DNA of 64,000 nt from Sporomusa malonica (lineage in GTDB: Bacteria > Bacillota > Negativicutes > Sporomusales > Sporomusaceae), in contig NZ_FWXI01000001.1 in the NCBI RefSeq assembly GCF_900176355.1, positions 62,001 through 126,000 of the forward strand, in the 5' to 3' direction. Below the pieces are notes generated by a model. The model had not been told where the DNA came from and made no database searches. It saw nothing but the letters and a program-made list of their open reading frames with translations. A program made the position numbers and the translations under genes. Shown one piece after another: positions 6,431 to 64,000 of this stretch; the stretch's first letter is position 1, and each line of letters opens with the position of its first letter.

Positions 6431-6799
6431 ATGAATTTTGGTGATAAGGTACGATATATTCGTGAAAAGTTCTCATTAACTACCACACAGTTGGCAAAGT
6501 TATTAAACGTGACGCAGTCGTACGTATCACACGTAGAAAACAACCGCCGACAGTTTGGTCGCGACAAAATTGTTGTATTAGCCAAGGAACTACAAATCCC
6601 TGTTGAATTTTTTCTGCGTGAAGATGTGGATACGTTAGAGCAAATCAGAGTTTCTGATGGGTTGGAAGCATTATTTAATGATGAAAGGTACCCCAACTAT
6701 TTCGGTGTAGTGGACTATGCAGTCAAGGCTGGCATTCGCCCCGAAGAATTGGAACAGGCGATAGAATTTATAAAGAATATAAGACACAAGACGAGATGA
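6431..6799 (+). CDS. XRE-family helix-turn-helix regulator
   Basis: 122 residues with an N-terminal HTH_3 domain (about 5-60: VRYIREKFSLTTTQLAKLL, then QSYVSHVENNRRQFGRDK) and a C-terminal helical extension without a recognised sensor domain. TAGGAGGGCC precedes the ATG. It stands alone between the methanol cluster and the DUF2325 leader and could regulate either. Its target is not visible. Confidence 0.85.
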   Translation: MNFGDKVRYIREKFSLTTTQLAKLLNVTQSYVSHVENNRRQFGRDKIVVLAKELQIPVEFFLREDVDTLEQIRVSDGLEALFNDERYPNYFGVVDYAVKAGIRPEELEQAIEFIKNIRHKTR

Positions 6800-6927: not shown

Positions 6928-6957
6928 TTGACACCCATTTATACTTTGTGCTAACAT
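6928..6957 (+). promoter_or_regulatory. Sigma-A-type promoter for the DUF2325 unit
   Basis: TTGACA at 6928-6933 and TAACAT at 6952-6957 are 18 bp apart. Transcription should start near 6964, about 20 nt before the first of two hairpin/terminator units. It lies in the 371-nt gap 6800-7170, which otherwise holds only those leader elements. Confidence 0.7.
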
Positions 6958-6983: not shown

Positions 6984-7044
6984 GCTGACCGGAATACCGG
7001 AGGCAATCGGTGGCTGTAACCCCAGCCGCGATTGCCTCTTTTTT
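6984..7044 (+). ncRNA. Leader RNA unit A: GCTGA, small hairpin, terminator
   Basis: GCTGA (6984-6988) is followed directly by a 4-bp hairpin (CCGG 6989-6992, loop AATA, CCGG 6997-7000). A strong terminator follows: 10-bp stem 7000-7009 with 7029-7038, capped by a second 6-bp stem 7011-7016/7023-7028, then T6. The last base of the small hairpin is the first base of the terminator stem. The same layout repeats at 7077 and 63377, with compensating changes in the stem. It looks like an attenuator, but no known riboswitch class matches. Confidence 0.65.
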
Positions 7045-7076
7045 ATTTGATTGTGGTCACAATTGAGATGAGTATT

Positions 7077-7144
7077 GCTGACTGGGAATATCCAGAGGCA
7101 ACTGAAGTTCTACCTGAAAATAGAATTTTGGTTGTCTCTTTTTT
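7077..7144 (+). ncRNA. Leader RNA unit B: second tandem copy
   Basis: GCTGA (7077-7081) is followed by a 5-bp hairpin (CTGGG 7082-7086, loop AATA, TCCAG 7091-7095). The terminator stem 7095-7102/7131-7138 has an inner AT-rich stem 7105-7112/7121-7128, then T6. Compared with unit A, both stems have changed sequence while keeping pairing, and GCTGA, AATA and GAGGCAA are kept. It ends 26 nt before the DUF2325 start codon, so readthrough of two consecutive terminators would be needed for expression from the upstream promoter. Confidence 0.65.
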
Positions 7145-7170: not shown

Positions 7171-7455
7171 ATGACGGCTATGGTCATAGGTGCTGATTAC
7201 CTGGGGGCAATTGAAGGAAAAATGCGGGATATGGGCATAACCGAGATCGCTCATATTAAGGGCCGGAACCCTGGCGAGGTAAAAAAGTTCAATATACCCA
7301 AGAGTGCTGCTTTCGTCTTAGTGTTTACCGATTATATCAATCACAACATGGCTAAAGTGGTAAAAAGTCATGCGAAAGCTCAGTCGGTTCCGTTGGTTTA
7401 TGCAAAACGGTCATGGTGTGCCGTTGAGCGCAAACTGGCTGGGCTAGGCCTGTAG
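7171..7455 (+). CDS. DUF2325 protein
   Basis: 94 residues matching the small DUF2325 family: MVIGADYLGAIEGKMRDMG at the start, then FTDYINHNMAKVVKSHAK and a VYAKRSW motif. The fold is probably a Rossmann-like alpha/beta domain; biochemical function is not established. RBS TAGGAGATGAGGAT precedes the ATG. It is preceded by two tandem leader terminators and followed, about 200 nt on, by a corrinoid protein gene. This suggests a link to corrinoid or redox metabolism, by context only. Confidence 0.8.
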   Translation: MTAMVIGADYLGAIEGKMRDMGITEIAHIKGRNPGEVKKFNIPKSAAFVLVFTDYINHNMAKVVKSHAKAQSVPLVYAKRSWCAVERKLAGLGL

Positions 7456-7652
7456 TAGCTGAAATTTACTGAAGAATGCATTGCTTACGTTGAGACATGA
7501 GACAGTGCAAGATGACAAAACGTATATTCATAAACTGGTCAATGGTCCTTGGCATTAAGACGAATTTATCCACATTGCTCCGTATAAAACAGTTCAGGAG
7601 GAAGAATTCGGGATTGGCGTCAAGTAAATTAAATATCATGGGAGGGCTTGAA

Positions 7653-8309
7653 ATGCCGGTAAACAAGGAAGAATTACTCAAAAAGTTATCAGAGGCTGTT
7701 GTGGACATGAATGAGGATGAGGCTGTAAGTTTGGCACAGGAAATTGTGTCAGCGCAAATTGATGCCTATGAAGCTGTTGAGAAAGGGCTGTCTGATGGCA
7801 TGGACCGGGCAGGAAAACTATTCGAAGAAGAAGAGTATTTTATTCCTGAGCTGCTGCTGTGCTCTGATGCCATGTACGCTGGGCTGGATGTGTTAAAAGG
7901 GCATATCAAAGTTGCCGAACAAGGGGAAAAACGCAAAGTAGTCATTGGGGTTGTAGAAGGTGACACCCATGATATTGGTAAGAACCTGGTGAAGATTATG
8001 CTGGAGACTTCCGGATTTGACGTTTACGATTTGGGTAGAGATATTGCACCATTAGCCTTTGTTGAAAAGGCTAACGAAGTGAAGGCTGATATTATTGCCC
8101 TAGCTACCCTAATGACCACCACGATGGATGGGATGGCCGAGGTTGTGCGAATTTTGCAGGAACAAGACATCAAAGACCGCTACAAGGTGATTATTGGCGG
8201 CGGACCGATTTCGCAGAGCTTTGCCGATAAAATCGGCGCTAATGGCTATGCCGTTAATGCTGCAGATGCTGTAAGGATTTCTAAGCGGCTTCTAGGAGCA
8301 GCAGGGTAG
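7653..8309 (+). CDS. Corrinoid protein of the MtbC/MttC type
   Basis: 218 residues: helical cap then B12-binding domain with EGDTHDIG (His106 as the lower axial ligand) and a GGGPISQSFADKIGANGY loop. The ATG at 7653 is chosen because CATGGGAGGGCTTGAA precedes it; an in-frame ATG at 7497 is possible but adds 52 residues unlike the family. It is more distant from MtaC than the 1115 protein and resembles the carriers for methylamines or other methyl donors. The methyltransferase expected downstream is missing: only a 10-codon stub follows. Confidence 0.86.
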   Translation: MPVNKEELLKKLSEAVVDMNEDEAVSLAQEIVSAQIDAYEAVEKGLSDGMDRAGKLFEEEEYFIPELLLCSDAMYAGLDVLKGHIKVAEQGEKRKVVIGVVEGDTHDIGKNLVKIMLETSGFDVYDLGRDIAPLAFVEKANEVKADIIALATLMTTTMDGMAEVVRILQEQDIKDRYKVIIGGGPISQSFADKIGANGYAVNAADAVRISKRLLGAAG

Positions 8310-48041: not shown

Positions 48042-48054
48042 ATATACGCTGATA

Positions 48055-48152
48055 ACTCATCTTCCGGATTGCTCCGCTGGATTTAGCACCTTGCGTAAAC
48101 GCTGGTTGCTGGGTATCATAGGGCCAGTCCCTCTACCACTCTTGATAAGTTT
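48055..48152 (-). ncRNA. SAM-I (S-box) riboswitch
   Basis: The minus strand reads CTTATCAAGAG, GGTAGAGGGACTGGCCC, ATGACACCC-like GATACCCAGCAACC, then AAGGTGCTAAATCC and AGATGAG, the full set of S-box conserved blocks in order. P1 pairs ACTTATC with GATGAGT. A terminator follows, then the transsulfuration enzyme. High SAM should stop transcription. Confidence 0.95.
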
Positions 48153-49387: not shown

Positions 49388-49753
49388 ATGACTAAACAGG
49401 AAACTGTGAGCATAAGCAAGCATTTTACTGAAGCCGGACTTGAGCTTATTGAGCAAGCGGTGCAAGATATTACTTTTGGCTCGCTTACTTTAGTAGTCCA
49501 AGACTCCAAAGTAATTCAAATTGAGAAGCTGGAAAAAATCCGGATTTGTGACCAACAGCCTAAAGCGGCCAGCAAAACAGTCACGCAAGTGGCAGTTGGG
49601 GCCGCTTTGCGGACACGGATTTTACAATCTGTAAGCGGCATGGAGTATGGCAAGGTTGCGATCCAAATTCAGTCTGGCCAAATTACACAGGTTGAGCGAA
49701 CAGAAAAATATCGAGTAGGTAAATTTATGGGGCTTAACGGTGAAGGAATCTAA
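49388..49753 (+). CDS. Tandem DUF2292 (YezD-like) protein
   Basis: 121 residues made of two similar halves: VQDITFGSLTLVVQDSKVIQ then KLEKIRI, and VSGMEYGKVAIQIQSGQITQ then RTEKYRV. Each half fits DUF2292, which is usually a single unit of about 60 residues. Function is unknown. It follows hydE after 25 nt with ATGGAGGAAAT as RBS, so the two genes are probably co-expressed. Confidence 0.72.
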   Translation: MTKQETVSISKHFTEAGLELIEQAVQDITFGSLTLVVQDSKVIQIEKLEKIRICDQQPKAASKTVTQVAVGAALRTRILQSVSGMEYGKVAIQIQSGQITQVERTEKYRVGKFMGLNGEGI

Positions 49754-49829: not shown

Positions 49830-49954
49830 GGCTATTTAGAGGAGGTATTAGAGTTTTTGCAGTTGAAGAGTATACCAAATAGATTTTGACACTAAAGGTC
49901 ATCATGGCGGTATAATTAAAGCATAGAAACTATAAACAAGTGAGGAATTCGGGT

Positions 49955-51148
49955 ATGGAAAATAAGAAAACGGTATTTGACTTCGATACAATCATCCCCC
50001 GCCGGGGAACTGGCAGCAGTAAATGGGATGCGGTGGAAAAAGTATTTGGCAGTCGGGATGTGCTACCACTATGGGTCGCCGATATGGATTTTGCCACGCC
50101 CGCTGCTGTAACAACCAAGTTGCTGGAGCGGGCGCAGCATCCTATCTATGCTTATAATACACATGAGGCACCGCTCTATCAGTCATTTATTGACTGGGTC
50201 AAACATCGGCATCATTGGGAGATTGAACAAGACTGGATTTTACTGGCTCCGGGCGTTGTTCCGTCAATCATCCTGTCTATTTTAGCCTTGTCAGATCCAG
50301 GAGATGGCGTTATTATTCAACCACCAGTATATCCACCATTTTTTGCTTCCATCAAGGATAATGACCGGAAGATTGTGGAGAATCCGCTGATTGTTAAGAA
50401 TGGCCGTTATGAGATTGATTTTGATGATCTGGAGCAGAAGCTGGCCGATCCCCAAAATAAGTTATTGCTGTTCTGCAGCCCGCATAATCCGGTTGGCCGG
50501 GTATGGAGCAAGGCAGAACTGGAAAAAATATATGAACTCTGCCAAAAATACCAGGTCAATATCCTGTCAGATGAAATCCACAATGATCTGGTTTACGGGG
50601 AGCAGCAGCATACTGTTTTTGCCTCACTTGGCATGCCGGTGGCTAAAGAGACTGTTACTTTTATGGCTGCCAGTAAAACATTTAATATCGCGGGGCTTAA
50701 TTTCTCGTTTATCGTCGTTCCCTGCAAGCGCAGACGGGCTTTAATCAGTTCCTGGTTTGCCAAATTGCATATTAACCGCAACAATCTTTTTGGTGCAGTT
50801 GCCACCGAAACCGCCTACAGGGAAGGTGAGGCATGGCTGGATTCTTTGTTGCAGTATCTTGAGGGGAACGCTGACACTGTAGTCGAGTTTGTCCGGAACC
50901 GGCTGCCTGGTGTCAAAGTAGTCAAACCTGAGGGTACTTTTTTGGCATGGCTGGATTTTCGCGACTATTTTACCAATGCCAAAGATCTTGAAGAGTTTCT
51001 TGTACATAAAGCAAGAGTGGGACTTAATCCAGGCAAAAATTTTGGGAGCCAGGGAGAAGGCTTTGCCAGGCTAAACTTTGCTACCCAGCGCAGTGTGCTG
51101 CTGGAGGGATTAACTAGGATAGAAAAGGCGCTTCAGGCAATTAAATAG
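49955..51148 (+). CDS. patB: MalY/PatB-type C-S beta-lyase aminotransferase
   Basis: 397 residues of fold-type I PLP enzymes. PLP lysine Lys241 in AASKTFNIAGL; LPLWVADMDFATP near 37-49 and YAYNTHEAPLYQSF near 65-78 are hallmarks of PatB/MalY; DEIHNDLVY near 206-214. It cleaves cystathionine or cysteine conjugates to give a thiol or sulfide. GAGGAATTCGGGT precedes ATG 49955. Together with the transsulfuration enzyme it fits a methionine/cysteine interconversion set. Confidence 0.87.
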   Translation: MENKKTVFDFDTIIPRRGTGSSKWDAVEKVFGSRDVLPLWVADMDFATPAAVTTKLLERAQHPIYAYNTHEAPLYQSFIDWVKHRHHWEIEQDWILLAPGVVPSIILSILALSDPGDGVIIQPPVYPPFFASIKDNDRKIVENPLIVKNGRYEIDFDDLEQKLADPQNKLLLFCSPHNPVGRVWSKAELEKIYELCQKYQVNILSDEIHNDLVYGEQQHTVFASLGMPVAKETVTFMAASKTFNIAGLNFSFIVVPCKRRRALISSWFAKLHINRNNLFGAVATETAYREGEAWLDSLLQYLEGNADTVVEFVRNRLPGVKVVKPEGTFLAWLDFRDYFTNAKDLEEFLVHKARVGLNPGKNFGSQGEGFARLNFATQRSVLLEGLTRIEKALQAIK

Positions 51149-63175: not shown

Positions 63176-63340
63176 GTAATCCCTCCTGCGAATTGCTCAT
63201 ATACGCTATTCTACATGAAATCAGGCGATAAATCTTCCTGTATTTTAACGACCAATTAAAGTGATTTTTCGAGACTGATTAGTAAACCAAAGGTCAGAAT
63301 ATGAAAGGTTCGGTCAGGGTGTCTTTACCGCAAGGCTGCT

Positions 63341-63376: not shown

Positions 63377-63430
63377 GCTGATCAGAAAACTGAAGGCCAA
63401 GGTTCATCATGTGAACTTTGGCCTTTTTTA
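63377..63430 (+). ncRNA. Leader RNA unit C: GCTGA, small hairpin, terminator
   Basis: GCTGA (63377-63381) is followed by a 4-bp hairpin (TCAG 63382-63385, loop AAAA, CTGA 63390-63393). A 14-bp terminator (63393-63406 with 63412-63425, one G-T pair) ends in a T-run. As in the units at 6984 and 7077, the last hairpin base is the first terminator base, and the terminator starts with AGGC. It controls the reductase gene 40 nt downstream. Confidence 0.6.
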
Positions 63431-63465
63431 CATTTAAAGTATAACTACAATAGGGGGAATTGCCA

Positions 63466-64000
63466 ATGGAACAAGTATGGGCAAAAGAACTAGACAAGTT
63501 GAACAAGGTTGAGTTAATCAAACTTGAGAAAGACGGCCTTGATATAGTCAATGATATTGAGCGCTTCGCCAGATTAGGGTTTGACTCTGTTACCGAAAAG
63601 GATTTTGATTTGCTTAAGTGGCTGGGGCTATACATATCCCGGCCTAAAGAAGCTGGATTTTTCTTGCTGCGGGTAAAAGTTCCAGGCGGAGTGCTTAATT
63701 CGGCACAGGCCAGGGGATTAGCTGGCATCGCCCGTGACTATGGGCGTAATCTGCTTGATGTTTCTACCAGGCATGCGATTCAGTTTCACTGGATTCGCGT
63801 AGAGTATTTGCCTGATATCTTTGCCAGACTTGAGAAAGTGGGGCTTAGCTGTCTTGAATCAGCCGGGGACTGCCCGCGTACCATTGTTGGTAATCCAGTA
63901 TCAGGCTATGACCTGGATGAAGTTATAGATGCTGGTCCGGTTTTAAAGGAAGTATCTGACGTCTTCCATAATAATAGAGAATTTTCCAATCTACCCCGTA
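63466..64000 (+). CDS. Siroheme sulfite/nitrite reductase (N-terminal part, runs off the window)
   Basis: An open frame of 178 codons from ATG 63466 without stop at the window end. The sequence has the ferredoxin-like half-domain of nitrite/sulfite reductases (FLLRVKVPGGVLNSAQARGL; LLDVSTRHAIQFHWI; GDCPRTIVGNPVSGYD). The Fe-S/siroheme Cys motifs would lie beyond the edge, so nitrite versus sulfite cannot be decided. TAGGGGGAATTGCCA precedes the ATG. A leader terminator lies just upstream. Confidence 0.85.
   Translation, partial: MEQVWAKELDKLNKVELIKLEKDGLDIVNDIERFARLGFDSVTEKDFDLLKWLGLYISRPKEAGFFLLRVKVPGGVLNSAQARGLAGIARDYGRNLLDVSTRHAIQFHWIRVEYLPDIFARLEKVGLSCLESAGDCPRTIVGNPVSGYDLDEVIDAGPVLKEVSDVFHNNREFSNLPR

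Follow-up and report, generated by a model that had tools for sequence, protein, structure and literature searches.

The RAT of the BglG/SacY/LicT systems is a short hairpin with conserved internal-loop bases that overlaps the 5′ arm of a terminator. The leader units described here, from Sporomusa malonica and many other bacteria, resemble it in that their hairpin also overlaps the terminator 5′ arm, and we propose that a small protein stabilises them. Nevertheless, the RNA consensus is different (GCUGA/AGGC), the units stand before sulfur genes and not before the PTS sugar operons controlled by BglG/LicT, they number from several to 35 per genome, and their candidate partner matches DUF2292/OscA only, with neither the CAT RNA-binding domain nor the PRDs of BglG/LicT. 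Terminator-based leaders of the S-box (SAM) and T-box types are found on methionine and cysteine genes of the same phylum (there is a T-box in locus L149), but neither model matches at the units. Lambda Q, which the phage itself encodes, acts beside a terminator site to control the late genes; the phage modules reported below differ from lambdoid Q in having as their site an RNA hairpin that overlaps the terminator, and as their proposed factor a DUF2292 protein common to host sulfur control. This protein belongs to the same family as OscA (NF033785)/YezD, a member of which, in Pseudomonas caspiana, is encoded directly upstream of a sulfate-binding protein gene; it differs from OscA in its two tandem repeats and in its link to an RNA unit, which is missing from the Proteobacterial loci.

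We analysed a stretch of 64,000 nt of the S. malonica genome (the window), whose relevant features are collected in Table 1. The original prediction of two consecutive GCTGA-hairpin-terminator units ahead of a DUF2325 gene was borne out, both units being present at positions 6984–7144. In the window there are two occurrences of the spaced pattern GCTGAC-N0-20-GAGGCAA, where 0.04 would be expected from shuffled sequence. The hairpin had been described as a 4–5 bp stem with an AATA loop, which is accurate for unit 1, whereas unit 2 has a 4-bp stem and a GAATAT loop, and its fifth stem pair would be G-U. Likewise, hairpin and terminator share the single base originally counted if only the upper hairpin is considered, but not when a lower stem, composed of a G-C pair, a C-G pair and usually one or two further pairs, is taken into account, since AGGC(AA) is then common to both structures. 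Because this lower stem makes antiterminator and terminator use the same AGGC(AA), the two folds are mutually exclusive; in unit 1 their calculated free energies are about −10 and −30 kcal/mol, respectively.

Table 1. Coordinates of leader elements and associated genes in the window.
Feature	Coordinates	Strand	Evidence
Promoter of the DUF2325 leader, sigma-70-like (TTGACA, 18-nt spacer, TAACAT)	6928..6957	+	Consensus scan
Unit 1, putative antiterminator hairpin GCUGA-CCGG-AAUA-CCGG-AGGC	6984..7004	+	CM R2, 70.8 bits; conserved in genus
Unit 1, intrinsic terminator GAGGCAAUCG.../...CGAUUGCCUC + U6	7000..7044	+	Stem 7000–7038; fold calculation
Unit 2, putative antiterminator hairpin GCUGA-CUGG-GAAUAU-CCAG-AGGC	7077..7099	+	CM R2, 52 bits
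Unit 2, intrinsic terminator, 7094–7139 + U5	7094..7144	+	Sequence scan, fold
DUF2325 gene (PF10087), predicted to be gated by units 1 and 2	7171..7455	+	Pfam
Corrinoid protein gene (B12-binding), same cluster	7653..8309	+	Pfam, NCBIfam
SAM riboswitch (RF00162, 87.6 bits), preceding a gene for a Cys/Met PLP enzyme	48054–48151	-	Rfam
DUF2292/YezD gene, protein with two repeats, proposed RNA-binding antiterminator	49388..49753	+	PF10055, E 1.6e-26
Unit 4, degenerate, with terminator, 16 nt past the DUF2292 stop codon	49770..49829	+	CM R2, 29.5 bits, E 0.005; fold
PatB/MalY-family C-S lyase gene (patB), downstream of unit 4	49940..51148	+	TIGR04350, E 4e-155
Unit 3, GCUGA-UCAG-AAAA-CUGA-AGGC, with terminator	63377..63429	+	CM R2, 53.7 bits; fold
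Sulfite/nitrite-reductase-like gene, predicted to be controlled by unit 3, continues beyond the window	63460..64000	+	NIR_SIR_ferr, E 9e-19

The promoter of the leader lies ca. 25 nt upstream of unit 1, and in genomes of the same genus both unit 1 and the cysK unit are likewise preceded, at ca. 25 nt, by a TTGACA...TGnTAcTAT arrangement. An XRE-type HTH gene (6431–6799) lies directly upstream of the tandem leader. The tandem precedes DUF2325 in seven genomes of the genus, including that of the window, with one locus (L035, from G007) keeping a single unit, and cysK is preceded by one unit in the genus. Downstream of DUF2325, same-genus relatives carry nitrogenase-component-1-like genes (PF00148) and corrinoid methyltransferase genes. 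The nitrogenase-like genes seen after DUF2325 in L033, L039 and L043 are missing from the window (7456–7652), where the corrinoid protein gene comes directly next. Related gene clusters with MarHDK-like genes have been linked to methyl-sulfur metabolism (PMC10418091).

A covariance model, built in two rounds (R1, then R2), retrieved further units conforming to the general form N-N-[C/U]GA-(Y..stem-loop..R)-AG-N-N, mostly GCUGA...AGGC, in which the 3′ arm of the hairpin (AGGC..) doubles as the 5′ arm of an intrinsic terminator. Their upper stems differ widely in sequence (CYGG/CCRG, UCAG/CUGA, UUGG/CCAA and CUAG/CUAG, among others), and their lower stems include GC/GC, AC/GU and GU/AC. In an alignment of 150 units (A4), for which the lower stem was excluded from the aligning model, pairing in the upper stem reaches 99.8 %, and each of its four pairs has changed on both sides; the claim that the small stem changes sequence yet stays paired thus holds, with compensatory changes at every upper-stem pair. 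Covariation extends beyond the terminator stem not only to this upper hairpin but also to the lower stem, which the original prediction had not noticed: both-sided changes occur here at 4/4 pairs, and the double-change cells amount to 252, against 100 ± 9.5 in shuffles, none of 500 shuffles reaching the observed value. Pairs 13–45 and 14–44 of the lower stem are nearly always formed, and pair 12–46 varies (AU in 45 units, GC in 25, UA in 20 and GU in 14). Within the stems, only [C/U]GA and AG are near-invariant (A42 and G43 in 150/150 units, A17 in 147 and G16 in 137). Column 45, either C or U, covaries both with its lower-stem partner and with its terminator partner, which is the signature of mutually exclusive folds.

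A strict anatomical finder, requiring hairpin, AG, lower pairs, terminator and U-tract, identified 53 units in 452 kb of match regions and none in the reversed sequence; over all cellular loci examined it found 203 distinct units with 34 distinct stem pairs. It is extremely implausible that the units are ordinary intrinsic terminators accompanied by a chance hairpin, or DNA operators. Every strict unit does have an intrinsic terminator, although by construction of the finder, but the empty reversed control and the sulfur-specific gene context described below argue against both ideas, and the double-sided covariation, including G-U pairs, already contradicts them. A search of Rfam 15 at the units found no riboswitch, T-box or leader family above the gathering threshold, and nothing plausible at E<=10. 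The data thus support the original view that stacked attenuators, matching no known class by eye, precede DUF2325, and their class is absent from Rfam. We found no earlier description of the unit class in the open-access literature, a scope that leaves out most subscription journals, and the family therefore appears to be a large one so far undescribed. Inspection also led us to discard a k-turn for the UGA/AG loop, whose second strand has AG where a k-turn needs GA, as well as CsrA sites, which have GGA in the loop, because units with UCAG and other stems lack GGA.

Matches to R2 were present in 92 of 341 Negativicutes genomes, with up to 35 units per genome, and in 40 of 398 genomes sampled across the phylum; units also occur in Clostridia and Bacillales. 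Instead of appearing as scattered terminators of unrelated genes, the motif is concentrated on sulfur metabolism. The first downstream genes encode sulfate-binding proteins (8/94), CysK (8/94) and UroD-type corrinoid methyltransferases (7/94), as well as parts of ABC transporters of the sulfonate, taurine, methionine and cystine types, MetQ, Cys/Met PLP enzymes, sulfite reductase, MetK, NifH-like and nitrogenase-like proteins, DUF2325, DUF1847 and DUF2292 itself. Among the Bacillales, the unit precedes a sulfate-binding protein gene in Kurthia, Rummeliibacillus, Lysinibacillus and Niallia, and in Priestia abyssalis a unit with DUF2292 stands before an ssuB-like gene. Outside Negativicutes, in the same phylum, loci L180 and L187 have units before metK (S-adenosylmethionine synthetase), in tandem in L187. 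Dense clusters of matches (16 in 70 kb at G031:C1:2957733-3027868 and 13 in 43 kb at G107:C8:60853-103656) mark large sulfur-gene islands. Computation thus delineates an RNA class with mutually exclusive folds that is set in a sulfur regulon.

Within the window, the sequence ACTGA-TTAG-TAAA-CCAA-AGGT at 63274–63294, ca. 100 nt before unit 3, looks like a decayed unit whose stem contains one mismatch and which lacks a clear terminator, and the two possibly form a second tandem arrangement. The SAM riboswitch is divergent from a stretch with hydE-like, DUF2292, unit 4 and patB, so that two kinds of sulfur leader lie side by side.

The DUF2292/YezD gene of the window, which unit 4 follows, encodes a clear family member (92 bits against PF10055, with a curated cut-off of 22). 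This association recurs. PF10055 is present in 83 of the 84 Negativicutes with a strong motif versus 49 of the 257 others, and in the phylum sample in 33 motif genomes and not in seven, versus 35 with and 323 without among the rest, comparisons whose p-values ignore shared ancestry. DUF2292 went undetected in one strong-motif Negativicutes genome (G135) and in four motif genomes of the phylum sample; among the seven exceptions in the phylum sample, three (G415, G502 and G533) carry, in a phage-like locus, a divergent gene that resembles DUF2292 and lies beside the unit. Scanned alone, one of these genes passes the PF10055 cut-off; the other two are alike by eye only. DUF2325, itself a regulon gene, served as a specificity control: in the same 67 genomes, DUF2292 occurs in 47/49 with the motif versus 3/18 without it, and DUF2325 in 34/49 versus 9/18. 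The concern about shared ancestry is met in part by this control together with the rescued exceptions. We also rejected DUF2325 as the regulator, given its weak co-occurrence with the units. Additionally, 33 phylum genomes have both unit and DUF2292, and in 11 of these a unit follows the gene on its 3′ side in the same orientation, at a distance of no more than 530 nt and frequently of no more than 100 nt; among DUF2292 loci away from scored matches, mostly in CM-negative genomes, several (L352, L353, L354 and L363) have a unit just 3′. No unit could be recognised beside the DUF2292 genes of Pseudomonas and Sphingobium, which may mean either that the link to the RNA is peculiar to Firmicutes or that the site has diverged in those Proteobacteria.

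The same pair is found in viruses. Scanning IMG/VR for the pattern yielded 158 loci, of which 23 contain a strict unit and 135 do not; a DUF2292-like gene was detected by profile in 10/23 of the former, several of the remaining ones being cut off by a contig edge, versus 1/135 of the latter, and three more strict-unit loci (L197, L254 and L329) have one by eye. In all such loci this gene is upstream of the unit, on the same strand, and downstream of the unit are sigma-region-4 or DUF1492 regulators, or the small terminase in L329. No sulfur genes were seen among the first downstream genes of these viral loci, and tblastn of the phage DUF2292 proteins against named phages gave no match. DUF2292 could be, in bacteria, merely one more member of the regulon, but the phage modules argue against this, since they pair DUF2292 and unit without sulfur genes. 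The unit and DUF2292 are thus genetically coupled in bacteria and phages. To judge from gene content and order, DUF2292/YezD is very probably the genetic partner of the unit, and phages very probably borrowed gene and hairpin together to control their own genes.

These data also bear on whether the unit could be a very small riboswitch for, e.g., a sulfur metabolite, DUF2292 being no more than a sulfur protein under the same regulation. A terminator-coupled cis-regulatory RNA before one pathway, with a near-invariant internal loop, would fit such a reading, but the unit has only ca. 21 nt and roughly nine conserved bases, and the characterised aptamers we know of are larger. A riboswitch would also leave unexplained both the near-perfect co-occurrence of unit and DUF2292 and the viral DUF2292-like genes with units ahead of late regulators, and we consider it quite improbable. 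The original prediction had left it undecided whether the units respond to a ligand or to an RNA-binding protein; DUF2292/YezD is now a strong candidate for the latter.

The window protein also matches its closest curated relative, NCBIfam NF033785 (OscA, ‘sulfur starvation response protein’), with E 1e-14 and 54.1 bits, below the 85-bit equivalog cut-off. AlphaFold models the DUF2292 domain as one helix plus a β-hairpin (pLDDT 80), and the two-repeat window protein alone was poorly predicted (pLDDT 37). A fold search of the PDB with the DUF2292 model returned no neighbour and no detectable RNA-binding fold, a PDB sequence search gave no match for DUF2292 or DUF2325, and our search of the open-access literature found no paper giving a molecular function for DUF2292/YezD/OscA. 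It is conceivable, in keeping with the lack of a known RNA-binding fold and with the occurrence of DUF2292 without units in some genomes (49 Negativicutes without a strong CM-detected unit) and in Proteobacteria, that another protein binds the RNA and that DUF2292 senses sulfur or modifies that protein. We deem this unlikely, because it is DUF2292 that is repeatedly found next to the unit in compact phage modules and no other gene was seen recurring beside units in both phages and bacteria.

The best explanation, and in our view a probable one, is that each unit attenuates transcription within a sulfur regulon in a protein-dependent manner, with DUF2292/YezD acting as its antiterminator. The nascent leader would fold either into a short antiterminator with an asymmetric internal loop (5′-..GC-UGA-Y...R-AG-GC..-3′) or into the far stabler terminator, both sharing AGGC... 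By default the terminator would prevail and the gene would be off; as it is much stabler than the antiterminator, read-through should need something that stabilises the latter. DUF2292/YezD would bind the antiterminator through the near-invariant UGA/AG internal loop and block folding of the terminator, so that the polymerase would read through, presumably under sulfur scarcity. Two units in series before DUF2325 would be two checkpoints in one leader, and in phages a DUF2292-like gene just upstream of one unit would form with it a pair gating late-regulator genes. The genetic coupling leads us to infer strongly that DUF2292 would be the cognate antiterminator; direct RNA binding, antitermination as the direction of the effect and sulfur status as the signal are predictions of this model.

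Alternatively, DUF2292 and the hairpin might favour termination, or act on RNA decay or translation. In two large-genome relatives (L347:212 and L349:378) a terminator-less unit immediately precedes the start codon of a cysT-like gene, and DUF2292 comes after the permease gene that follows; these units possibly exert translational control. In most units, however, the terminator 5′ arm is the hairpin 3′ arm, so that stabilising the hairpin must weaken the terminator, and we regard this alternative as very unlikely overall.

We further consider it fairly likely that DUF2292/YezD/OscA is an unrecognised family of RNA-binding antiterminators, governing a Firmicutes-wide sulfur-starvation regulon through the GCUGA/AGGC hairpin and taken over by phages for late genes; with 40–60 residues per domain, these antiterminators would, if this is true, be among the smallest known. 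A conserved protein family of unknown function (DUF2292) would thereby acquire a molecular function, and the units would constitute a new cis-regulatory RNA class, by which a sulfur regulon would be defined in Negativicutes as well as in many Clostridia and Bacillales. Roles in sulfur metabolism would be predicted for DUF2325, DUF1847, DUF1858 and the nitrogenase-like and corrinoid methyltransferase clusters downstream of units. Finally, phages would here have adopted a metabolic RNA switch of their hosts for lytic timing, something that is rarely seen.
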